From NCBI GenBank assembly GCA_905234455.1, contig CAJOIH010000007.1, forward strand, positions 1 to 64,000: a stretch of 64,000 nucleotides of DNA, given 5' to 3'. How positions within the stretch are numbered: position 1 is the stretch's first letter; the number at the start of each line of letters is the position of its first letter. This DNA comes from an uncultured Bacteroidales bacterium. Lineage in GTDB: Bacteria > Bacteroidota > Bacteroidia > Bacteroidales > F082. Made by a program: the position numbers and the translations under genes. Under the pieces are notes generated by a model. That model was given only the letters and a program-made list of their open reading frames with translations, did not search any database and was not told the origin of the DNA. This document shows positions 1,628 to 58,615 of the stretch, piece by piece.

Positions 1628-2047
1628 TCACGAAATGCTTTTGAAAGCTTCAGCGTAAAGCATCATTTGCTTCACCATGGAGACCAAGCCATTGGAACGG
1701 GTGGGGCTCAAATGCTCTTTCAAACCGATTTCATCGAGGAAAGACAGGTCGGCTGACAAAATGTCTTCCGGAGTTTGGCCAGAGAAAACCTTGATCAGCA
1801 AATTAATGATGCCTTTGGTGATAACAGCATCGCTGTCGGCGGTGAAATAAACCTTGCCGTCCCTGAGCTCGGCATGGAGCCACACTCGCGACTGGCAACC
1901 ATTGATCAGATATTGGTCGTTACGGTATTGTTCGTCAATAATGGGGCACTCCTTCCCCATCTCGATTAGCATGGCGTAACGGTCCATCCAATCATCGAAC
2001 ATCGAGAAGTCCTCAACGATACTGTCTTGTATTTCTTTGATAGTCAT
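1628..2047 (-). CDS. sufE: SufE sulfur acceptor protein
   Basis: A 139-residue SufE. It takes persulfide sulfur from SufS and passes it to the SufBCD scaffold in the cytoplasm. The acceptor cysteine is Cys51 in INGCQSRVW, the expected position and context for the family, and total length is normal. It is the last gene of the suf operon. Its ATG shares one base with the sufS stop (TAATG), which implies translational coupling and a matched dose of the two partners. About 90 bases separate it from the convergent nuclease-like gene; no obvious terminator hairpin was found there. Confidence 0.93.
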   Translation of the reverse strand: MTIKEIQDSIVEDFSMFDDWMDRYAMLIEMGKECPIIDEQYRNDQYLINGCQSRVWLHAELRDGKVYFTADSDAVITKGIINLLIKVFSGQTPEDILSADLSFLDEIGLKEHLSPTRSNGLVSMVKQMMLYAEAFKSIS

Positions 2048-3315
2048 TATCTTAACATATTTGCGGCTTTATTCACCGCATGAACTAGAATATCAACTTC
2101 TTCCAAAGTGTTATATACTGCGAACGAGGCACGCACGGTGCCGGGGATGCCGAAACGGGTCATCACGGGCTCGGCGCAATGGTGACCAGTGCGGACGGCC
2201 ACACCCATTTTGTCAATAATGGTGCCAAGGTCGTATGGATGGATGCCATCGATAATGAAACTCACCAGGCCACTACGCTCGGGGGCCTGACCGATGAAGC
2301 GCATGCCTTCAATCTTCGACAAACCCGCTATGGTTGCAGCCACCAAAGCCTCTTCATGCTCAGCCACTGCCTTACGGTCAAAGCTCTCGATGAACTTTAT
2401 AGCCGTCTCCAGACCCAAGGCGGCACCTACGTTAGGGGTACCAGCCTCGAACTTGAAGGGCAATTTATTGAAGGTGGTCTTCTCGAAACTCACGGTTTCG
2501 ACCATCTCGCCACCGAACTGATAGGGAGGCATCTTCTCGAGCCACGCCGTCTTGCCATACAAGCCACCAATGCCCATGGGGGCGTACATCTTGTGACCGG
2601 AGAAGACGAAGAAGTCGCAGTCCAGGTCCTGCACATCGATGGACAGATGGGCCATTGATTGGGCACCGTCGACTACCGTAATGGCACCGTACTGATGGGC
2701 CAACCGGATCATCTCCTTCACGGGATTGATAGTCGCCAAGGTATTGGAGACATGGGCCATGGCAACGATTTGCGGGCTTTGTTTCAGCAGGTTTTCGTAG
2801 GCTTGAAGGTCGAGGACACCGTTGTCGTCCATAGGGGCTACGAGGAGTTCGCCGCCATAAAGCTGGACCATCTGCTGCCAAGGGACCAGATTGGAATGGT
2901 GTTCCATTGCCGTCACAAGCACTTTGGGGCGACGTGTGGATTGCCACGTCGCTCCGCTAAGCTCCGCTCCTCGCAATGACATACCTGACGCCAACAACCT
3001 TCCCAAAGAGGTGGCAAGCAAATTCAGCGACTCAGTGGTGCCGCGGGTGAAAACGATCTCATGGGCTTCCTTGGCGTTGACGAAACGGGCCACGGTGCGA
3101 CGGGCGTTCTCGTAGGCCTCGGTAGCCATCTGACTGAGGTAATGAACACCCCTGTGGATGTTGCAGTTCTCGTGAAGGTAGTAGTCGCGCTCCCGTTCAA
3201 TCACACAAAGGGGTTTCTGGGTGGTCGCGGCATTGTCTAGGTACACCAAAGGCTTGCCGTAGACCTGCTGGTCTAGCACTGGGAACTGACGACGTATTTC
3301 GTTGACATCCATCAT
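2047..3315 (-). CDS. sufS: SufS cysteine desulfurase, with an in-frame repeat insertion
   Basis: A 422-residue PLP-dependent class V aminotransferase-fold enzyme that removes sulfur from cysteine for Fe-S assembly. The PLP lysine is Lys242 in SGHKMYAP and the persulfide cysteine is Cys380 in RTGHHCAEP; the EHHSNLVPW motif is intact. Residues about 111-127 (GMSLRGAELSGATWQST) have no counterpart in normal SufS proteins, where LATSLG is followed after about 14 residues by MEHHSN. They are encoded by a dispersed-repeat-like DNA element at 2937-2983 that keeps the frame. All catalytic residues remain, so the enzyme is probably active. Its start overlaps the sufD stop (ATGA) and its stop overlaps sufE (TAATG). 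Confidence 0.95.
   Translation of the reverse strand: MMDVNEIRRQFPVLDQQVYGKPLVYLDNAATTQKPLCVIERERDYYLHENCNIHRGVHYLSQMATEAYENARRTVARFVNAKEAHEIVFTRGTTESLNLLATSLGRLLASGMSLRGAELSGATWQSTRRPKVLVTAMEHHSNLVPWQQMVQLYGGELLVAPMDDNGVLDLQAYENLLKQSPQIVAMAHVSNTLATINPVKEMIRLAHQYGAITVVDGAQSMAHLSIDVQDLDCDFFVFSGHKMYAPMGIGGLYGKTAWLEKMPPYQFGGEMVETVSFEKTTFNKLPFKFEAGTPNVGAALGLETAIKFIESFDRKAVAEHEEALVAATIAGLSKIEGMRFIGQAPERSGLVSFIIDGIHPYDLGTIIDKMGVAVRTGHHCAEPVMTRFGIPGTVRASFAVYNTLEEVDILVHAVNKAANMLR
2937..2983 (-). repeat. REP-like dispersed element inserted in frame in sufS
   Basis: On the minus strand the element begins TATGTCATTGCGAGGAGCGG and ends GTGGCAATCC, with ATTGC/GCAAT as inverted ends. Inside, AGCGGAGC occurs twice, ten bases apart. 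From memory this matches a class of short elements (GTCATTGCGAGGAGC...GCAATCC) scattered in many bacterial genomes, usually between genes. Here it lies inside an essential coding region and adds about 17 codons without a stop. I found no second copy in the window. Confidence 0.7.
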
Positions 3316-4130
3316 TTTTTAGGATTTTTGCAATGTAACACACAACGGTCGCAGCTGGAGAGCTCACCACGCAGGCGGCGCTTGATCATGTCCTCGATGG
3401 TGTCGCGCAGGCTGTCGATCTTGATATGGTTGCTGATTTCAGCGGCGAAGGCATACATCAACAACATGCGGGCGTTGGCCTTGCTGATGCCACGCTGGCG
3501 CATGTAGAACATAGCCTCCTGGTCGAGCTGGCCGGTAGAGGTGCCGTGTGAGCACTTCACGTCGTCGGCGTAGATTTCCAAGAAGGGCTTGGTGTCGATT
3601 TTGGCCGTCGAGGTCAAGATGATGTTGGCGTTGTTCTGCTGGGCGTCGGTCTTTTGCGCCCCTGGGGCCACATACACATGGCCGTTGAACACTGCTGTAG
3701 CCTCATCGTCCATGATGCCCTTGAAGCGGGTGTCGCTGGTGCAATGCGCCACGTTGTGGTTGATCTTCAGGTAGTTCTCCATGTGCTGCTTCCGATCCAC
3801 TAGATACAAGCCGTACACTTGGGTCTCGCAACCCTCGCCGTCAATATCAACGGTGATATTGTTGCTCAAATCGCCGGCATTGAAACTGATGACCACAAAA
3901 TGCACCCTACTGTCGCGCTCCTGATGGATGTGGATGTGAGTCTTCAAGCCAGTGGTGTCGTCGAGGTTCTGGATGCGGTACATCTCAAGGGAGGCATTCT
4001 CCTTGACCACGATTTCGCAATGCTCCTCGTTGGCCTGAAGGTGCTCTGTGTCGTCCGACAACACAATCTGCCGGTACTGCCCGCTCTCGACAACGATATT
4101 GTTTTCCAAGAATTCCATCGTCGTAGGCAT
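3312..4130 (-). CDS. sufD: SufD, short form lacking the N-terminal domain
   Basis: A 272-residue member of the SufB/SufD family, part of the SufBC2D scaffold on which Fe-S clusters are built. It has the beta-helix core and the C-terminal helical region, including VKCSHGTSTGQLD with the conserved His, and the MFYMRQRGI segment. Known SufD proteins are usually about 420-450 residues, so the N-terminal helical domain is absent. The gene directly follows sufC, so no missing piece lies upstream. The ATG at 4130 overlaps the sufC stop (TAATG); a start at 4154 inside sufC is possible but less likely. The tail is cysteine-rich (CDRCVLHC). Identity is firm from order and motifs; the effect of the short form is unknown. 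Confidence 0.88.
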   Translation of the reverse strand: MPTTMEFLENNIVVESGQYRQIVLSDDTEHLQANEEHCEIVVKENASLEMYRIQNLDDTTGLKTHIHIHQERDSRVHFVVISFNAGDLSNNITVDIDGEGCETQVYGLYLVDRKQHMENYLKINHNVAHCTSDTRFKGIMDDEATAVFNGHVYVAPGAQKTDAQQNNANIILTSTAKIDTKPFLEIYADDVKCSHGTSTGQLDQEAMFYMRQRGISKANARMLLMYAFAAEISNHIKIDSLRDTIEDMIKRRLRGELSSCDRCVLHCKNPKK

Positions 4131-4882
4131 TACAGGTTCATATCCTTGATCCATTCGTAGCCCTTCTCCTCCAGCTCGATGGCGAGATGCTTGCCACCCG
4201 ACTTGACGATGCGGCCGTCGTACATCACATGCACGAAGTCGGGCACGATGTAGTCGAGCAGGCGCTGGTAGTGGGTGATCACCACAAAGGAGTTGTCCTT
4301 GTTGTGCAGCTGGTTGACGCCGTTGGCCACGATGCGCAGGGCGTCGATATCCAGACCCGAGTCGGTCTCGTCGAGGATGGCAAGGCTGGGCTCGAGCATG
4401 GCCATCTGGAAGATTTCGTTCTTCTTCTTCTCGCCGCCGGAGTAGCCCACGTTGACGAAGCGGTTCTGCAGCTTCTCGGTGATTTCCACCATAGCTTGTT
4501 TCTCCTTCATCATCTTCATGAACTCGATGGTCGACAGGGCGGGAAGGCCGAGGTATTCGCGTTTGGAGTTGACGGCGGTGCGCATGAAGTTCTGGATGCT
4601 CACGCCGGGGATCTCCACGGGGTATTGGAAGCTGAGGAAGATGCCCTCGTTGGCGCGGTCTTCGGGTGACATGCCCACGATGTTCTTGCCTTTGTACCAG
4701 ATCTCGCCCTCGGTGATCTCGTAGCCTTCGCGGCCGGTGATGGCAGCGGCTAAAGTGCTCTTGCCGGTGCCGTTGGGGCCCATGATGGCGTGGATTTCAC
4801 CTTCGTTGACGCCCAAGTTCAATCCCTTCAGGATTTCCTTTCCTGCGACAGAGACATGTAAGTTTTTGATATTGAGTAACAT
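4130..4882 (-). CDS. sufC: SufC ATPase of the SufBCD complex
   Basis: A 250-residue ABC-type ATPase without membrane segments. Walker A is GPNGTGKST (residues 35-43), the signature is YSGGEKKKNE and Walker B runs into ILDETDSGLD; the switch His is in VVITHYQRLL. It powers conformational changes of the SufB-SufD scaffold during Fe-S cluster assembly in the cytoplasm. Length and motif set are typical. It lies 12 bases after sufB and overlaps sufD by one base, consistent with a single operon mRNA. Confidence 0.96.
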   Translation of the reverse strand: MLLNIKNLHVSVAGKEILKGLNLGVNEGEIHAIMGPNGTGKSTLAAAITGREGYEITEGEIWYKGKNIVGMSPEDRANEGIFLSFQYPVEIPGVSIQNFMRTAVNSKREYLGLPALSTIEFMKMMKEKQAMVEITEKLQNRFVNVGYSGGEKKKNEIFQMAMLEPSLAILDETDSGLDIDALRIVANGVNQLHNKDNSFVVITHYQRLLDYIVPDFVHVMYDGRIVKSGGKHLAIELEEKGYEWIKDMNL

Positions 4883-4894
4883 ATTGTTGAATTT

Positions 4895-6346
4895 TTATCC
4901 TACACTACCTTCTAATGTGATTGACAATAATTTTTGTGCCTCAACGGCGAACTCCATCGGAAGCCGGTTCAACACGTCCTTGGCGTAGCCGTTGACGATA
5001 AGGCCGATGGCCTTCTCGGTGGGGATGCCGCGCTGCTGGCAATAGAAGAGCTGGTCCTCGGAGATCTTGGAGGTGGTGGCCTCGTGCTCGAGGATGCTCG
5101 ACTCGTTGCCGCACTGGACGTAAGGCCAGGTATGCGCACCACACTGGTCGCCCATCAGCAGGGAGTCGCACTGCGAGTAGTTGCGTGAATTAATGGCTTT
5201 CGGTGCCACGCGAACCAGACCACGATAGCTGTTCTGGCTGTGACCGGCGGAGATACCCTTCGAGATGATGGTGCTGCGGGTGTTCTTGCCCAGATGGATC
5301 ATCTTGGTACCGGTGTCGGCCTGCTGGTAATTGTTGGTGACAGCCACGGAGTAGAACTCGCCGATGGAGTTGTCGCCCATCAGCACACAGCCCGGATATT
5401 TCCAGGTGATGGCCGAGCCGGTCTCCACCTGGGTCCAAGAGATCTTGGAACGGTCGCCGCGGCAGAGGCCGCGCTTCGTCACCAAGTTATACACACCGCC
5501 TTTGCCTTCTTTGTCGCCCGGATACCAGTTCTGCACCGTGCTGTACTTCACCTCAGCGTCCGTCTCGGCGATGATTTCCACAATGGCGGCATGGAGTTGG
5601 TTTTCGTCACGCATCGGGGCAGTACAACCTTCCATATAGCTCACGTAGGCGCCTTCATCGGCCACGATCAGGGTGCGCTCGAACTGGCCCGTGTTGGCCG
5701 CATTGATACGGAAATAGGTGGAGAGCTCCAAGGGGCAATGCACGCCCTTGGGGATGTAGCAGAACGAGCCGTCGCTGAACACAGCCGAGTTCAAGGCAGC
5801 AAAGAAGTTGTCGGTGTAAGGCACCACCTTGCCGAGGTACTTCCTCACAAGGTCAGGGTGCTGTTTCACCGCCTCGCTGAATGACATGAAGATGACGCCG
5901 TGCTTCGACAGCGTCTCCTGGAAGGTGGTCTTCACCGAGGTGCTGTCCATGACAGCATCCACAGCCACGCCGGAAAGCTTTTTCTGCTCGTCGAGCGAGA
6001 TGCCCAGCTTGTCGAAAGTAGCCAACAACTCCGGATCCACCTCATCTAGGCTCTGCTTCTCCTGACGTTTCCGAGGAGCTGCATAATAAATAATGTCTTG
6101 ATAATCAATCTCAGGCAGGTCGAGATGACCCCAGTTGGGCTGCTTCAGCGTCAGCCAGTGACGGAACGCCTTCAAGCGGAACTCGAGCAACCATTCCGGT
6201 TCCTCCTTTTTCTTGGAGATCAGCCGGATGATGTCCTCATTCAAGCCCTTCGGCACAAAATCGGTCTCGATATCGGTCACAAAGCCAAACTCATAATCCT
6301 TGCTGGTGACCTCTTCGATGATGTTTTCCTTTGGATTTGACTCCAT
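4895..6346 (-). CDS. sufB: SufB Fe-S scaffold protein
   Basis: A 483-residue SufB, the main scaffold for cluster assembly with SufC and SufD. The functional cysteine is Cys393 in [12 protein letters not shown], matching the essential Cys of well-studied SufB proteins. Length and the segments [14 protein letters not shown] and [13 protein letters not shown] are typical. It is the first gene of sufBCDSE. A Bacteroidetes promoter about 40-65 bases upstream on the minus strand suggests the operon starts here. No binding site for an Fe-S-sensing regulator such as SufR or IscR could be recognised. Confidence 0.97.
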
Positions 6347-15028: not shown

Positions 15029-15061
15029 CAGTTAGGGGTTAGGGGTTAGAAGTTAGGGGTT
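15029..15061. repeat. TTAGGGG-type short tandem repeat in the secA leader
   Basis: Units of GGGGTTA and close variants (GTTAGGGGTTAGGGGTTAG and onward) lie 9-41 bases upstream of the secA ATG. In the mRNA they read AACCCCTAAC. They resemble the GAGTTAGGAGTGAG repeats found at other gene borders in this window. Confidence 0.75.
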
Positions 15062-15089
15062 AAAAAACAATAGTTCGTCAAAAATCGTG

Positions 15090-19474: not shown

Positions 19475-19517
19475 AGTTAGAAGTTATTCAGTTTGAAGTT
19501 ATTCAATTAGCAGTTAT
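19474..19517. repeat. GAAGTTATTCA tandem repeat between coaD and the Nudix gene
   Basis: AGAAGTTATTCA and TGAAGTTATTCA repeat in tandem, followed by AGCAGTTATAG. The repeat supplies the coaD leader, and its right end encodes the last residues and stop (TGA at 19505-19503) of the upstream Nudix gene. Confidence 0.65.
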
Positions 19518-20174: not shown

Positions 20175-20825
20175 ATGAAATATGACGACTCAGCGCTGGT
20201 GTTAGCGACGCATCTTTTGCAAATCAAAGCCGTGAAACTAAGTCCGAAGCAGCCATTTACCTGGGCTTCGGGGCTGCACAGCCCGATCTATTGCGACAAC
20301 CGTGTCACCTTGTCGTATCCGGCGGTGAGGACCTTCATCCGCCAGCAGTTCGTGGAGCAGGTGATGCAGCATTACGGCAAGCCCGATGTCATTGCGGGTG
20401 TAGCCACAGGCGGCATTGCCCAAGGCGCCTTGGTGGCCCAGGAGCTAGGGTTGCCTTTCTGCTATGTGCGTTCCGAGAAGAAGTCGCACGGCATGCAGAA
20501 CCAAATCGAAGGCGTCATCGAGTCGGGCCAGTCGGTCATCGTCATCGAGGACTTGGTGTCGACAGGCAAATCGAGCCTTTTGGCCGTAGACGCCCTCCGC
20601 GAAGCCGGTGCCAACGTCAAAGGCATGTTGGCCATCTTCACTTATCAGCTCCCTGTAGCGGAGGAGAACTTCGCTGCCAAGGAGTGCACGTTACACACGC
20701 TCACCAATTACGAGACTTTGATTTACAAAGCCATCGAGGAGAAATACATCAGCGAGGAAGACCAGCAGTCCCTTTTGGAATGGAGGAAAGACCCGCAGGC
20801 GTGGAGCGATCGAGTGGGGAGTTAG
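20175..20825 (+). CDS. pyrE: Orotate phosphoribosyltransferase
   Basis: A 216-residue enzyme joining orotate and PRPP to make orotidine 5'-phosphate in pyrimidine synthesis. The PRPP-binding loop is VIVIEDLVSTGKSS (about residues 118-131), and the orotate/PRPP contacts lie in FTWASGLHSPIYCDNR and VRSEKKSHG. Length is normal for the bacterial enzyme. The last codon and TAG stop (20823-20825) fall in a GAGTTAGGAGTGAG repeat shared with the convergent birA gene. pyrH, another pyrimidine gene, occurs later but is not linked. Confidence 0.96.
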   Translation: MKYDDSALVLATHLLQIKAVKLSPKQPFTWASGLHSPIYCDNRVTLSYPAVRTFIRQQFVEQVMQHYGKPDVIAGVATGGIAQGALVAQELGLPFCYVRSEKKSHGMQNQIEGVIESGQSVIVIEDLVSTGKSSLLAVDALREAGANVKGMLAIFTYQLPVAEENFAAKECTLHTLTNYETLIYKAIEEKYISEEDQQSLLEWRKDPQAWSDRVGS

Positions 20826-20854
20826 GAGTGAGGAGTTAGGAGTGAGGAGTTAGA
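20815..20854. repeat. GAGTTAGGAGTGAG repeat between convergent pyrE and birA
   Basis: Tandem GGAGTTAGGAGTGA units fill the junction. The repeat supplies the pyrE TAG (20823-20825) and, on the other strand, the birA TAA (20852-20850). It carries stops in several frames. Confidence 0.85.
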
Positions 20855-37007: not shown

Positions 37008-37033
37008 GGAGAACGGAAAGTTTTCCGTTTTCC
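37008..37033. terminator. Hairpin between convergent frr and ddl
   Basis: GGAGAACGGAAA (37008-37019) pairs with TTTCCGTTTTCC (37022-37033) with one G-T pair, followed by ATTTTTATTTTT on the plus strand. It can end frr, and perhaps also ddl in the other direction. Confidence 0.65.
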
Positions 37034-37037
37034 ATTT

Positions 37038-38015
37038 TTATTTTTCCAGAGCATCCTCTATTGCCATTCCAAACAGTTGTTCCAAACTCAGGCCGAAGCA
37101 TCGTGCCTGTGAGGGGATGATGCTGGCGTCGGACATGCCTGGAACGATGTTGGCCTCGATGAAGAACACGCCTTCCTTACTGACGATGTAGTCCATGCGG
37201 ACAAAGCCCTTGCATTCCAGTTTCTCATAAAGCATCGCCGTAGTTGCCTTGATTTCGATTTCGATTTCCTCATCCACTTGGGCAGGAGTGATCTCGTCGC
37301 ACTTGCCGGCGGTGTATTTGGCCTCATAGTCGAAGAATTCGTTCTTACTGCAGATCTCGGTGAGCGGGAACACCATCATTTTGCCTTGATAGCACATGGC
37401 GCCGCAGCCGAACTCACGTCCGTCGACGAACTTCTCACACATCACCTGTCGGCCAGCAGCCCTTGCCGTGAAAATAGCCGGTCCGAGATCTTCGGCAGTC
37501 TTCACCTTGGTCACGCCCACGCTGGAACCGTTACATGTCGGCTTGACAAACAGAGGCAGTCCCAGCTCCTTGATGATCTTGTCGGCATCATACTTCTCTC
37601 CTTCGTTGATCAGCACGGAGGGAGCCACGTTGACGCCATAGGAAGCCACCAGGCGCTTGCAGAAGTCCTTGTGGAAAGTAAGGGCGCAAGTGGTCAGGGG
37701 CGAAGAGGTACAGGGGATGCCCAACAATTCCAGATAACCCGACAAGGGTCCGTTCTCTCCTGGCTCACCGTGCACTGCATTGAAAACCACGTCGAATTTC
37801 GTCCTGTGGCCGCCCACTGAGATGGAGAAATCGTTTTTGTCAACGTCCACACGGGTGCCGTCTTTCAAGAGTCCGTACCATCCTTTTTTCGAGACCACGA
37901 TGATCTTCGAATTATAGAGTTCGGGATTCAAATTCTGTTTCACCACTTGGGCGCTCTTGACGGAAATCTCAAATTCGCCGGAATCTCCGCCACAAACTAT
38001 CGCTACATTCTTCAT
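37038..38015 (-). CDS. ddl: D-alanine--D-alanine ligase
   Basis: A 325-residue ATP-grasp enzyme making the D-Ala-D-Ala end of peptidoglycan precursors. The N-terminal motif is CGGDSGEFEISVKSA, then AVHGEPGENGPLSGYLELLG, the ATP loop KPTCNGSSVGVTKV, and the metal-binding FFIEANIVPGMSDASIIP. Length is normal, near 320. It is divergent from a PASTA-domain membrane protein, and both act on cell-wall matters. No clear -7 box was found upstream. Confidence 0.96.
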   Translation of the reverse strand: MKNVAIVCGGDSGEFEISVKSAQVVKQNLNPELYNSKIIVVSKKGWYGLLKDGTRVDVDKNDFSISVGGHRTKFDVVFNAVHGEPGENGPLSGYLELLGIPCTSSPLTTCALTFHKDFCKRLVASYGVNVAPSVLINEGEKYDADKIIKELGLPLFVKPTCNGSSVGVTKVKTAEDLGPAIFTARAAGRQVMCEKFVDGREFGCGAMCYQGKMMVFPLTEICSKNEFFDYEAKYTAGKCDEITPAQVDEEIEIEIKATTAMLYEKLECKGFVRMDYIVSKEGVFFIEANIVPGMSDASIIPSQARCFGLSLEQLFGMAIEDALEK

Positions 38016-40813: not shown

Positions 40814-41862
40814 GCGAGCAGATTCTTGAAGACCTCCTGGAAGGCGAAGGCACTGAAGAAGAAGGCGGCGAGCTCTACGAGCACATCCGCATCGTGGTCG
40901 ACAAGGGTCAGTCGCAGGAGCGCATTGACACTTTCTTGACCAACCACATCCAGAACATCTCCCGCAACCGCATACAGAACGCTGCCAAGGCTGGCAACAT
41001 CCTCGTCAACGGTAAGGCGGTGAAATCGAACTACAAAGTTAAGCCCTGCGATGTCATCTCCATTGTATTCAGCTACCCACCACGCGATGTCACCATTACT
41101 CCACAGGAGATTCCGTTGAACATCGTTTATGAGGACGACGATGTCATCGTCATCAACAAGCAGGCGGGTTTGGTGGTCCACCCCGGCCATGGCAACTTCG
41201 AGGGTACGCTGCTCCACGGTCTGGCTTGGCATTTCGAGCAGACCCACCAGGAGGTGGAGAACAAGTTCGGTTATCTGGTGCATCGCATCGACAAGGACAC
41301 CACCGGCTTGATGCTCGTTGCCAAAAACGAGACGGCCCAAGCCATCCTTGCCCATCAGTTCTTCGTGCATAGCATCCACCGCCGCTACAACGCGCTGGTG
41401 TGGGGCGACTTCGAGGAGGATGATGGCACCATCGAGGGCAATATCGGACGCAGCCCCAACGACCGCCGCAAGATGATGGTCTACCCCAACGGCGACCATG
41501 GCAAGGAGGCCATCACCCATTGGCATGTGCTGGAACGTTTCGGCTATGTCACCCTTAACGAATACCGGCTGGAGACCGGCCGCACCCATCAGATCCGCGT
41601 ACATTCGCAGTATATCGGACATCCTCTCTTCAACGATGCCACCTACGGCGGCGACCAGATCCTCAAAGGCACCACCTTCTCAAAATACCGTCAGTTCATC
41701 GACAACTGCTTCAAGCTGTTGCCCCGTCACGCCCTCCACGCGAAGGAGTTGGGCTTTGTGCATCCCAGCACCAAGAAAGAGATGCTTTTCACCTCCGAAC
41801 TTCCGGCAGACATGAGTGCGGTCATTGAGAAGTGGAGGAGATATGCGAGGAGTGAGGAGTGA
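40810..41862 (+). CDS. rluD: RluD-type 23S rRNA pseudouridine synthase
   Basis: A 350-residue pseudouridine synthase of the RluA/RluD group. An N-terminal S4 RNA-binding domain (ERIDTFLTNHIQ...AAKAGNILVNGK) is followed by a catalytic domain with the nucleophilic Asp in HRIDKDTTGLML and the ETGRTHQIRVH motif. It would modify helix 69 of 23S rRNA if it is the true RluD; RluA or RluC specificity cannot be excluded. The last codons (RSEE) and TGA lie in a repeat between it and the convergent hldD. Confidence 0.88.
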   Translation: MSEQILEDLLEGEGTEEEGGELYEHIRIVVDKGQSQERIDTFLTNHIQNISRNRIQNAAKAGNILVNGKAVKSNYKVKPCDVISIVFSYPPRDVTITPQEIPLNIVYEDDDVIVINKQAGLVVHPGHGNFEGTLLHGLAWHFEQTHQEVENKFGYLVHRIDKDTTGLMLVAKNETAQAILAHQFFVHSIHRRYNALVWGDFEEDDGTIEGNIGRSPNDRRKMMVYPNGDHGKEAITHWHVLERFGYVTLNEYRLETGRTHQIRVHSQYIGHPLFNDATYGGDQILKGTTFSKYRQFIDNCFKLLPRHALHAKELGFVHPSTKKEMLFTSELPADMSAVIEKWRRYARSEE

Positions 41863-41893
41863 GAAGTGAGAAGTTAGGAGTGGGAAGAGAGGA
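41845..41893. repeat. GAGGAGTGAGAAGT repeat between convergent rluD and hldD
   Basis: GAGGAGTGAGGAGTGAGAAG and GTGAGAAGTTAGGAGTGGG continue the same purine-rich repeat as at 20815. It gives rluD its TGA (41860-41862) and hldD its TAA (41876-41874), plus the last residues SSHS of the hldD product. Confidence 0.85.
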
Positions 41894-42830
41894 AGTTGAC
41901 GTAGGAACGGACGCCGTCCTCTAGGGAAGTAAAGGGGGCTTCGTAGCCGGCTTTTCGCAGTTTGGCCATATTGGCTTCGGTGAAGTATTGGTACTTATCG
42001 CGAATATCCATCGGAGTGTCGATGAACTCAATGTTTGTCGGTAAGCCCAAGGCCTTGAAGGTGTTGTCGGCAAGGTCGAAGAACGACCGAGCCTTGCCGG
42101 TACCCACGTTATAGAGACCTCTTTCCGGTTTGTTCCGCATGAGCCATAGAATCACCTGAGCCACATCCTTCACATAAACGAAGTCGCGCAACTGCTGGCC
42201 ATCCTGGAAGTTGGGGTTATGGGAACGGAACAGCTTTACCTTTCCGGTTTCCTTGATCTGGCGGAAGGCATGAAGGATCACCGATGCCATCTTGCCTTTA
42301 TGGAATTCGTTGGGACCATACACATTGAAGAACTTCAGTCCCGCCCAAAAAGGAGGCTGCCCGGTCTGCGCCAGGATATATTTATCGATTTCGTTTTTGG
42401 AACGACCGTAGGGGTTCAGGGGTTGCAAACGTCCAACGATGTCGTGTCGGTCGTCGTAGCCTAGTTCACCCATGCCGTAAGTAGCCGCAGAGGAGGCGTA
42501 GATCAAGGGGATTTGGTATTGGACACAGCGCGTCCACACCTGGATGGTGTAATCCACATTCAGTTGTTGGAACACGCCATAGTCGAACTCTGTAGTGTCG
42601 GTCCTTGCTCCAAGGTGGATTACAAATTCTACATTTCTATGGTTTTCATTAAACCAATCGAAAAAGGCCTTTCGGTCGATTAATTCGGCAAATGCCAGAT
42701 GTTCATAATTCCGTTTCTTCTCGGTTTTTGAGAAATCGTCCACAAGAGCCAAATCGACATAGCCCGATTGGTTCAATAGTTCAGCCACGTTGGAGGCGAT
42801 AAAACCTGCTGCGCCTGTGATGACGATCAT
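41874..42830 (-). CDS. hldD: ADP-glyceromanno-heptose 6-epimerase
   Basis: A 318-residue extended short-chain dehydrogenase. The Rossmann motif GAAGFIASN binds NADP, and the active site is in ASSAATYG with Tyr-x3-Lys in YGRSKNEID. FNVYGPNEFHKGKMASV is typical of HldD/RfaD, which makes the L-glycero-D-manno-heptose donor for lipopolysaccharide inner core. Length is normal. Its stop falls in a repeat shared with rluD. It overlaps the MerR regulator by four bases (ATGA). Confidence 0.9.
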   Translation of the reverse strand: MIVITGAAGFIASNVAELLNQSGYVDLALVDDFSKTEKKRNYEHLAFAELIDRKAFFDWFNENHRNVEFVIHLGARTDTTEFDYGVFQQLNVDYTIQVWTRCVQYQIPLIYASSAATYGMGELGYDDRHDIVGRLQPLNPYGRSKNEIDKYILAQTGQPPFWAGLKFFNVYGPNEFHKGKMASVILHAFRQIKETGKVKLFRSHNPNFQDGQQLRDFVYVKDVAQVILWLMRNKPERGLYNVGTGKARSFFDLADNTFKALGLPTNIEFIDTPMDIRDKYQYFTEANMAKLRKAGYEAPFTSLEDGVRSYVNFLSSHS

Positions 42831-56981: not shown

Positions 56982-58615
56982 TACCAATCCTTATCTGTCT
57001 TCCGTTTGGGTTGTGTACGTATCTTTTGTTCGTTGACCTTTTCCATGGTCTGTTTTTCCTGGTTCTCGAGGGCATCCAACATGCGTTGGGCGTCTTCCTT
57101 AGAGATATCCTGGGGATTCTGCTTTTGCTGTTGTTGCTGCTGTTGTTGATCCTGCTGGCCTTCTTGGTTCTGCTGCTGGTCTTGCTGTTCCTGTTGGTCC
57201 TGCTGGTCTTCTTGTTGCTGGTCCTGTTGCTGTTGCTGGTCTTGGTTCTCCCCTTCCTGTTTCTCGAAGACGGCGCTGACCATTACATCCATGCCCGGCA
57301 TGGTGAAGAAGTTGCCTAATGGCTGCACATGGATGGAGGTGTCGCCCAGCTGGCAGATTTGGTATTCCTTGAACTGATAGCCTGGCTCGGGAGCGTTGTT
57401 CAGCGTGACCGTCTCGCCACGCGTAGCCTTGTCGACATCGAGCAGTACATGGCCTCCCTCGATGGCGGTATCGGCCACCACCTGGTAGTATTCTTGTGCT
57501 TCCACGAAGCTGGCTTTCACCGTCACGTCGGCGTCGAGCATTTGGAACAGGTTCATGTCGTTGACCGGTGCGGTCACTGTTTCGTCCTTGTCGCTGACCA
57601 CGCGGAGCTCGTTGAGTTGATAGCCCTGTTCGGGTTTCACGATGATGCCGATGTTCTGTCCTGGCAGCGCCAAGGTATCGGTCACTCCAATAGTGCCATG
57701 TTCGGTGGAGTCGATGCTGATTTTCAATCCTGTACGGAACTGGGCGGTCACTGTCACGTCGAAGTCGGGCATTTGGAACACCGTGTCGTTTACCGGCACC
57801 GTGTCATTGGGGCTTCCTGTCTTGTACACCTTAAAGAAGTCCACCATGTAATTCGGTTCAGGCTGTGCATGGAGCGTGACTTGCTGTCCCTCGACGGCCT
57901 TTTTTCGGTCGGCGCTGATGGTGCCATGTTTGATCTTGTCGTCGATGTTGATACGATGCAGCATCTTGAACTCGGCGGTCACGATGACGTCGAACTTAGG
58001 CATCTCGAAACGGCTGCCGCTCACGTCGACGGTGACCTGTTGGTCATCGGCCTTCACCACGACATACTGTGAGAGGGCGTAGTCGGCGTCGGCCTTCGAT
58101 GTCAAGGTGACCATTTGGCCGTTAAAGGCCTCTTTTTCGCTGGCTTCGACCATGCCATGAGGAATCTGTGGGTCGACCCAGACATGGCTCTTCACCAAAT
58201 TGGCACGGCAGTATTCGAGGTTGTACAAGGCGTCGGCGTTGTCCGAATCGAACTTCAGGGCTACCTTAAAGATGTTGAAGGCGTCATAGTACTTCCTTTG
58301 AGCCAATAGGCAGTTGCCCATGTTGAACACTGCCTTGGACTTCAGTTTGGCGTCGGGGGTGAGTTCCAGCACTTTCTGGAAGGCTTCCATGGCATCCTTG
58401 TAATTCTCCTGTTGGAAGAGGGCATCGCCCAGGTTGAACTGTGCTTCGGCGCTGGTGGGCTTTTCGTCAAGGACCTTGCGGAAGCGGGTCTCAGCTTCGG
58501 TATAGTTGCCTTTGCGGTATTGCCGGTTTCCCTGACGGATCTGTTTTTCTATTGACTGGGCTTGTGCTCCCGCCACCAAAAACAGTAAAACTATCAAAAT
58601 CAATTTTTTACACAT
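56981..58615 (-). CDS. batC: BatC-like TPR protein with inserted beta repeats and Gln/Asp tail
   Basis: A 544-residue protein with a signal peptide (MCKKLILIVLLFLVAGAQAQ), then TPR repeats (GNRQYRKGNYTEAETRFRKV; AQFNLGDALFQQENYKDAME). Residues about 155-450 hold four repeats of about 75 residues with HGTI/GHV openings, a G-Q/E-x-V-T-L strand and F-x-MP-x-x-DV-x-V-x-A-x-F closings, similar to bacterial (InlB/Flg_new-like) repeats. A Gln/Asp-rich low-complexity tail follows. Typical BatC is about 250 residues with TPRs and a Gln-rich tail but without these repeats. Position between batB and batD supports the name. Start is one base after batB (TAAGATG). Confidence 0.85.
   Translation of the reverse strand: MCKKLILIVLLFLVAGAQAQSIEKQIRQGNRQYRKGNYTEAETRFRKVLDEKPTSAEAQFNLGDALFQQENYKDAMEAFQKVLELTPDAKLKSKAVFNMGNCLLAQRKYYDAFNIFKVALKFDSDNADALYNLEYCRANLVKSHVWVDPQIPHGMVEASEKEAFNGQMVTLTSKADADYALSQYVVVKADDQQVTVDVSGSRFEMPKFDVIVTAEFKMLHRINIDDKIKHGTISADRKKAVEGQQVTLHAQPEPNYMVDFFKVYKTGSPNDTVPVNDTVFQMPDFDVTVTAQFRTGLKISIDSTEHGTIGVTDTLALPGQNIGIIVKPEQGYQLNELRVVSDKDETVTAPVNDMNLFQMLDADVTVKASFVEAQEYYQVVADTAIEGGHVLLDVDKATRGETVTLNNAPEPGYQFKEYQICQLGDTSIHVQPLGNFFTMPGMDVMVSAVFEKQEGENQDQQQQQDQQQEDQQDQQEQQDQQQNQEGQQDQQQQQQQQKQNPQDISKEDAQRMLDALENQEKQTMEKVNEQKIRTQPKRKTDKDW
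57122..57252 (-). repeat. Gln/Asp-coding low-complexity tract in batC
   Basis: A run of CAG, CAA and GAC codons that encodes the DQQQQQDQQQEDQQDQQ-type tail. Such tracts are prone to change in length. Confidence 0.85.

Follow-up and report, generated by a model that had tools for sequence, protein, structure and literature searches.

The window analyzed here, a stretch of 64,000 nucleotides from an uncultured Bacteroidales bacterium, contains a gene for the cysteine desulfurase SufS (2047-3315, minus strand, 422 aa) in which a short segment resembles a dispersed repeat read as protein. The locus raises the question of whether such a segment is a one-off accident, an old loop of the enzyme family or one outcome of a process that recurs among relatives.

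The repeat in sufS and its copies in the genome

The REP-like repeat spans 2937-2981 on the minus strand and reads, from 2981 to 2937, TGTC-ATTGCGAGGAGCGGAGCTTAGCGGAGCGACGTGGCAAT-CCA (45 bp), with TGTC-ATTGCGAGG...GTGGCAAT-CCA as its ends on the sufS coding strand. It combines a TGTC tag, ATTGC/GCAAT arms and a CCA tail (GCAATCCA in this copy), and supplies the peptide MSLRGAELSGATWQST as SufS residues 112-127 (~16 residues), with the sufS reading frame open through the insert. The preliminary description had placed the element at 2937-2983 and its ~17 residues at 111-127, which was accurate to within two bases. Its label of a REP-type palindrome holds in part: the element is dispersed, tagged and of REP type, but it is weakly palindromic, with perfect arms of 5 bp and folding no better than that of shuffled sequences (z -0.57; -0.67 for the loop). 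These values rule out a stable hairpin in this copy. An RNA family was rejected as well, since nothing in the window matched Rfam at its gathering threshold.

The host protein has both the fold and the conserved active-site residues of SufS. The residues that we take to be the PLP lysine, the active-site cysteine and the EHH histidines occupy invariant columns of a 37-row SufS alignment, in keeping with the earlier statement that frame and catalytic residues are kept. Modeled with AlphaFold, as had been proposed for the loop, the insert follows helix 93-109 and precedes strand 131-135; disorder is predicted for it (pLDDT <50 at 114-127, whole-model mean 87.4), and the SufS fold around it is intact. 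Alignment with the top two PDB homologues, 5vpr and 5xt5, leaves gaps there totaling 18 and 17 residues, respectively, the latter in two pieces, and the loop measures 29 residues here vs 8-10 in near relatives with a plain loop and 12 in most other plain ones. SufS is probably an essential enzyme; it seems to be the sole cysteine desulfurase found in the genome to which the window belongs (G000; 2.02 Mb, 52 contigs, 83% complete).

The element is not unique in this genome. The motif TCATTGCGAG has 25 copies in the 2.02 Mb (reversed control 1) and TCATTGCGAGG has 10 (reversed control 0), bearing out the claim of a dispersed element. Nearly all of the 25 matches carry TGTC or CGTC, one (L077) resembles chance, and close copies that span the full element also occur at L002, L003 and L009. 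Close neighbors among the matches are L056/L057, L063/L064, L067/L068 and L079/L080; L063/L064 and L067/L068 are paired copies, and the window copy is single. Matches within long ORFs lie in mvaD (L059), a helicase gene (L060), a GreA-like gene (L065), sufS itself (L070), a GH20 gene (L071), mntP (L074), tilS (L073, where a contig ends), an isomerase-like gene (L069, close to the end of the gene) and the gene of an unknown protein (L076), and the pair L067/L068 is inverted inside the ORF of another unknown protein. Pfam domains span the element in mvaD, GH20 and mntP. L075 lies far upstream of a likely start, L079/L080 fall close to where a 232-codon frame begins, and the remaining matches are intergenic or uncertain.

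One SufS loop and many kinds of insert

SufS was compared across the genus in 22 loci from the genomes with G handles (the window's own included) and 61 named genus loci; the latter belong to the best 80 of 517 named loci, of which the other 19 are more distant. Removal of 16 duplicate rows, mostly with identical loop DNA, left 67 rows, and loop kinds were assigned by eye. All records are MAGs or uncultured assemblies, and those named among the near relatives come from uncultured Bacteroidales of gut and rumen, including bacterium F082 and Candidatus Limimorpha equi. Repeat-derived DNA occupies the same SufS loop in 29 of the 67 rows, in nine kinds and with every frame open. The rows divide into REP in sense (2) and antisense (6) orientation, TCAACTC heptads (7), GACGCAT (3), AACTTCA (1), GGAAAACGG/GGAAAGTGG hairpins (4), CCCCTCTGAGAGGGG (2), CCCCCTTGCCCCCC (2), CTCTCACC (1) and a long hairpin (1). 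All of these loops except L147 and L148 (27/29) exceed those of plain relatives in length. In single-strand folding, the GGAAAACGG, GGAAAGTGG and GACGCAT loops reach z values of -5.0 to -7.3 against shuffles, and L088 and L142 fold moderately better than shuffles; the REP and heptad loops mostly do not.

The remaining 38 rows have a plain loop. Two loci read individually were inserted (L177) and plain (L197), the loop is short in 8/8 rows from other families, and it is short in all 10 readable loci of the 19 distant named ones. An old, shared SufS loop is ruled out, as 38/67 genus rows and the examined other families lack it. The earlier assertion that family members have no such loop is correct for the eight rows of other families and fails within the genus, where 29/67 SufS carry repeat-derived DNA. 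The preliminary description had further held that equivalent orthologue loops made of unrelated DNA would tell against its reading; such loops do literally exist, yet they arise by recurrent insertion and not from an old loop. Its picture of a Rickettsia-like element in an essential enzyme of a Bacteroidetes stands as regards an in-frame insert in a probably essential SufS, but the case is not a one-off.

The genes around sufS served as controls. They are all on the minus strand, are presumably sufE (1628-2047), sufD (3312-4154), sufC (4130-4882) and sufB (4895-6346), and have no inserts. Extra runs were defined as columns filled in fewer than half of the rows, with rows excluded where the best match covered <80% of the query. 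Runs of at least 4 residues occur in SufS solely after core positions 105 (3 rows), 112 (22 rows) and 138 (3 rows), and no internal runs of this size were found in SufE (38 relatives' rows), SufD (62), SufC (55) or SufB (25), some of these proteins having fewer rows because loci end. The place after core position 138 (L188, L164 and L183) is a second and rarer insertion place; its inserts are VISTGAKRSGEIS, which looks like another kind of REP, and tandem peptides of the DRINK type.

Turnover of the inserts was followed on a tree of SufS without its loop regions combined with SufD and SufC, built in a quick version and in a careful, bootstrapped version. With 11 loop states (ten insert labels and none), both trees gave 27 changes, the minimum possible being 10, and both gave 15 changes for none vs insert, gain and loss being merged in these counts. 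Every label with at least two rows undergoes at least two changes, and well-supported branches alone carry 2 to 6 changes per label except for CCCCTCTGAGAGGGG, the inserts of which may have a single origin. The labels are hardly more clustered on the tree than shuffled ones (27 vs 28.4 changes), and the number of changes may be too high because of recombination or tree error, since heptad inserts that closely resemble one another lie scattered over the tree.

Repeats in other genes and genomes

Re-use of insertion places extends to other genes. For each of four genes that hold the REP in the window's own genome, the 30 best loci were taken, those of mntP from 46 genomes and those of the GreA-like gene, mvaD and tilS from 56-58, with loop DNA scored by counts of short motifs that have no shuffled control. 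In tilS, 15/29 read rows have inserts of four kinds (heptad type 5, REP 4, GTCGAA 4, GGAAAGTGG 2; the own row was unreadable). Two kinds were found in 11/30 rows of mvaD (its own REP 1, GTCGAA 10) and in 3/26 read rows of mntP (REP 2, GGAAAGTGG 1), and the linker of the GreA-like gene has inserts in 6/29 read rows, all of REP kinds. The GTCGAA rows of mvaD may trace to one or few events. Alignments agree with the motif counts, with some of the extra runs in mntP and tilS resembling ordinary linkers. The choice of genes by their own insert does not alone explain the re-use in other species.

The pattern TCATTGCGAGN{5,35}GCAATCC matched in 17 of 40 genomes, with a reversed control of 0 in every one; 15 of the 24 genus genomes have it (G000 included; at most 64 copies, in G019), and so do 2/16 genomes of other families, with one copy apiece. 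The search of genome and relatives for the element, which the preliminary description had suggested, is thus answered by 25 copies at home and by these 15 genomes. The heptad pattern was present in 20/40 genomes, 19 of them among the 24 of the genus; here the reversed control is uninformative because the pattern reads identically backwards. Among genomes with a SufS match, the SufS loop is inserted in 12 of the 14 that bear REPs vs 2 of the 8 that do not (p 0.008, kinship uncorrected).

Within the window, tandem arrays at 15031-15062, 19475-19517, 20812-20853 and 41847-41897, with units of 7, 14 or 15 bases (e.g., GTTAGGG or GGAGTTA), lie outside stop-free frames of at least 120 codons and look like intergenic kin of the heptad repeats. 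An inverted GGAAAACGG/CCGTTTTCC repeat at 37020-37062, outside long frames, is of a kind that other species have within the SufS loop.

Dispersal in carrier genomes was assessed in stretches of six genomes by comparing sites that share a 13-mer with the genome's own SufS loop to the mean of ten equal sufS windows. The loop exceeded the control mean in G022 (9 sites vs 0.4), G010 (4 vs 0.2) and G016 (7 vs 0.7). For the CCCCCTTGCCCCCC kind dispersal was weak (G021, 2 sites vs 1.0, one of them a long match), and no sites were found for the CCCCTCTGAGAGGGG kind in G017 (0 vs 1.0) or for the GACGCAT kind in 85 kb of G015 (0 vs 0). The REP, heptad, GGAAAACGG/GGAAAGTGG and AACTTCA kinds are dispersed. 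Twelve motif patterns gave 60 matches in 1.03 Mb of the six genomes, a raw number that includes chance matches and has no shuffled control; three places were matched by two patterns, and two of the 60 matches are the sufS inserts. Of all matches, 36 lie >30 codons from both ends of a stop-free frame that is 200 codons or longer, and densities are uneven (14/16 matches in 177 kb of G017 vs 2/7 in 195 kb of G021). One of the places found, after GFGDALPNRQITT, lies in a gene that was not preselected and has a GGAAAACGG-type insert in G022 (L377, near 8362) and a CTCACC-type insert in G010 (L395, near 9972).

Origin of the inserts and relation to known repeats

The combined results suggest, with a probability of about 0.75, that repeats spread through these genomes and that selection retains in-frame copies in a few permissive loops, which are used repeatedly. 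Several kinds (REP, GGAAAACGG-type hairpins, TCAACTC-type heptads and others) would have spread through the genus, and in the window a small non-autonomous repeat of REP-like form would have entered the SufS loop in frame and been read as protein. Insertions that break genes would be lost, so that intragenic copies would persist in frame in few tolerant loops; in-frame, stop-free copies, the open frames of which are observed, would stay there under presumed selection. Because permissive loops are few, insertion at them would be repeated, and the re-used loops would come to carry nested or replaced inserts (nesting is seen by eye in L092) that differ between sister species. We infer that the inserts are translated and nearly neutral, that purifying selection is the cause of the hotspots and that a transposition step brings the repeats in. 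As for the mobilizer, REP-flanked transposase genes of the REPtron type (RAYT-mobilized REP) were rejected, the repeat being present in 1/20 neighborhoods examined from a subset of all Y1_Tnp genes. Y1 transposase genes occur in 15/15 REP-bearing genus genomes vs 4/9 others (p 0.003), an association that stays a lead because kinship is uncorrected.

A hotspot could also be set at the DNA level, with a resident repeat drawing others into or beside the loop, and not by protein tolerance alone. A GTCGAA-type unit sits within the heptad array of L092 and is absent, by eye, from the arrays of L090 and L093; the REP of L082 is bracketed by the inverted repeat GCGACAG and CTGTCGC, and different inserts are accompanied by recurring modules such as ACGCAAAGCG. 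Several inserts are single, however (e.g., L147 and L096), and sister species have clean loops alongside inserted ones, and we consider such attraction rather unlikely. An extended form, also doubtful, would be a standing process of loop diversification in which codons of housekeeping genes act as landing pads for repeat cassettes that insert, nest and swap, giving each genome many proteins with changing repeat-encoded loops; if true, new protein sequence would keep arising in this way.

Alternatively, few insertions could lie behind the scatter on the tree, with homologous recombination shuttling sufS loops between species, as L093, L160, L173 and L184 have heptad inserts that resemble one another closely but do not group with their kind in a single clade. 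Such exchange would alter only the number of events and cannot create nine kinds of insert at one place; we consider it a very unlikely explanation. Selection of the inserted loops for a function, e.g., tuning of the contact between SufS and SufE, has in its favor that related forms of the insert are kept in two species (L081 and L082) and that G000 apparently yielded no cysteine desulfurase besides SufS. Yet very different peptides and lengths serve equally well, disorder is predicted for the insert and 38/67 rows manage without it, so a function of this sort is scarcely probable. An artefact of assembly or binning might be suspected with uncultured assemblies and a genome that is 83% complete, but the frames are open in all SufS rows, inserts are seen in many separate projects and the neighboring control genes are clean; we regard it as exceedingly improbable.

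The accessible parts of the account of CGTC-tagged REPs (PMC3733652; Di Nocera, De Gregorio, Rocco 2013) describe CGTC/TGTC tags, CCA tails, stems of 8-9 bp that start with A-T pairs and loops of 4-5, mostly in head-to-head dimers. They count Bacteroidetes among the host phyla, report intragenic copies in several species and no known dedicated transposase, suggest loops and linkers as neutral places for such copies and mention that two Xanthomonas species have different REPs at roughly one place in recB. As far as these parts go, the window element shares the tag (TGTC being an allowed form), the A-T stem start, the CCA tail and the in-gene copies, but has perfect arms of 5 bp in place of the longer stem. 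It works like a CGTC-tagged REP and is not filed as a member, because tag, tail and habits match and the stem does not. Its occurrence in a Bacteroidetes is no novelty in itself, since CGTC-tagged REPs, their presence in this group and intragenic copies are already in print there (PMC3733652); the use of one loop genus-wide by many repeat kinds, not REPs alone, sets the present case apart from what those parts describe.

Rickettsia palindromic elements (RPE) are, in the sections available, also translated in frame in conserved protein genes (PMC2229807, PMC2635572), and a guanylate kinase with an RPE insert stays active (PMC2229807). The window element resembles them in its in-frame position in conserved protein genes (sufS, and mvaD, GH20 and mntP with Pfam domains across the element), and differs in length and host (45 bp in Bacteroidales vs 105-146 bp in Rickettsia; PMC2229807) and in that one place is used again by repeats of other kinds. 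ERIC and the Correia/NEMIS MITEs are likewise small non-autonomous repeats with open frames that fuse to genes; their units are ~100-200 bp, and a shared hotspot is not described for them in the same sections (PMC2229807). A literature search for the literal motif of the element returned unrelated papers only, and one that was thin on subscription journals found no earlier description of a genus in which a single loop is used again by many repeat kinds, the recB remark (PMC3733652) aside. In-frame REPs are therefore already known, and genus-wide re-use of one loop by many kinds was not found in print.

In-frame repeats were previously a curiosity, known mainly from Rickettsia and from scattered REP copies. 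The genus offers a replicated natural experiment, in which many sister species and several housekeeping enzymes have received different repeats in one loop. It opens the questions of whether selfish repeats steadily supply proteins with new segments, which loops are dispensable to enzymes and whether hotspots are set by protein tolerance or by DNA targeting. For annotation, peptides such as SLRGAELSGATWQS, SALRQAQGP and NSQLSTLNSQL in such genomes should be read as translated repeats and not as domains. A low-complexity stretch rich in glutamine is also coded at 57161-57249 of the window in a minus-strand frame of 637 codons.
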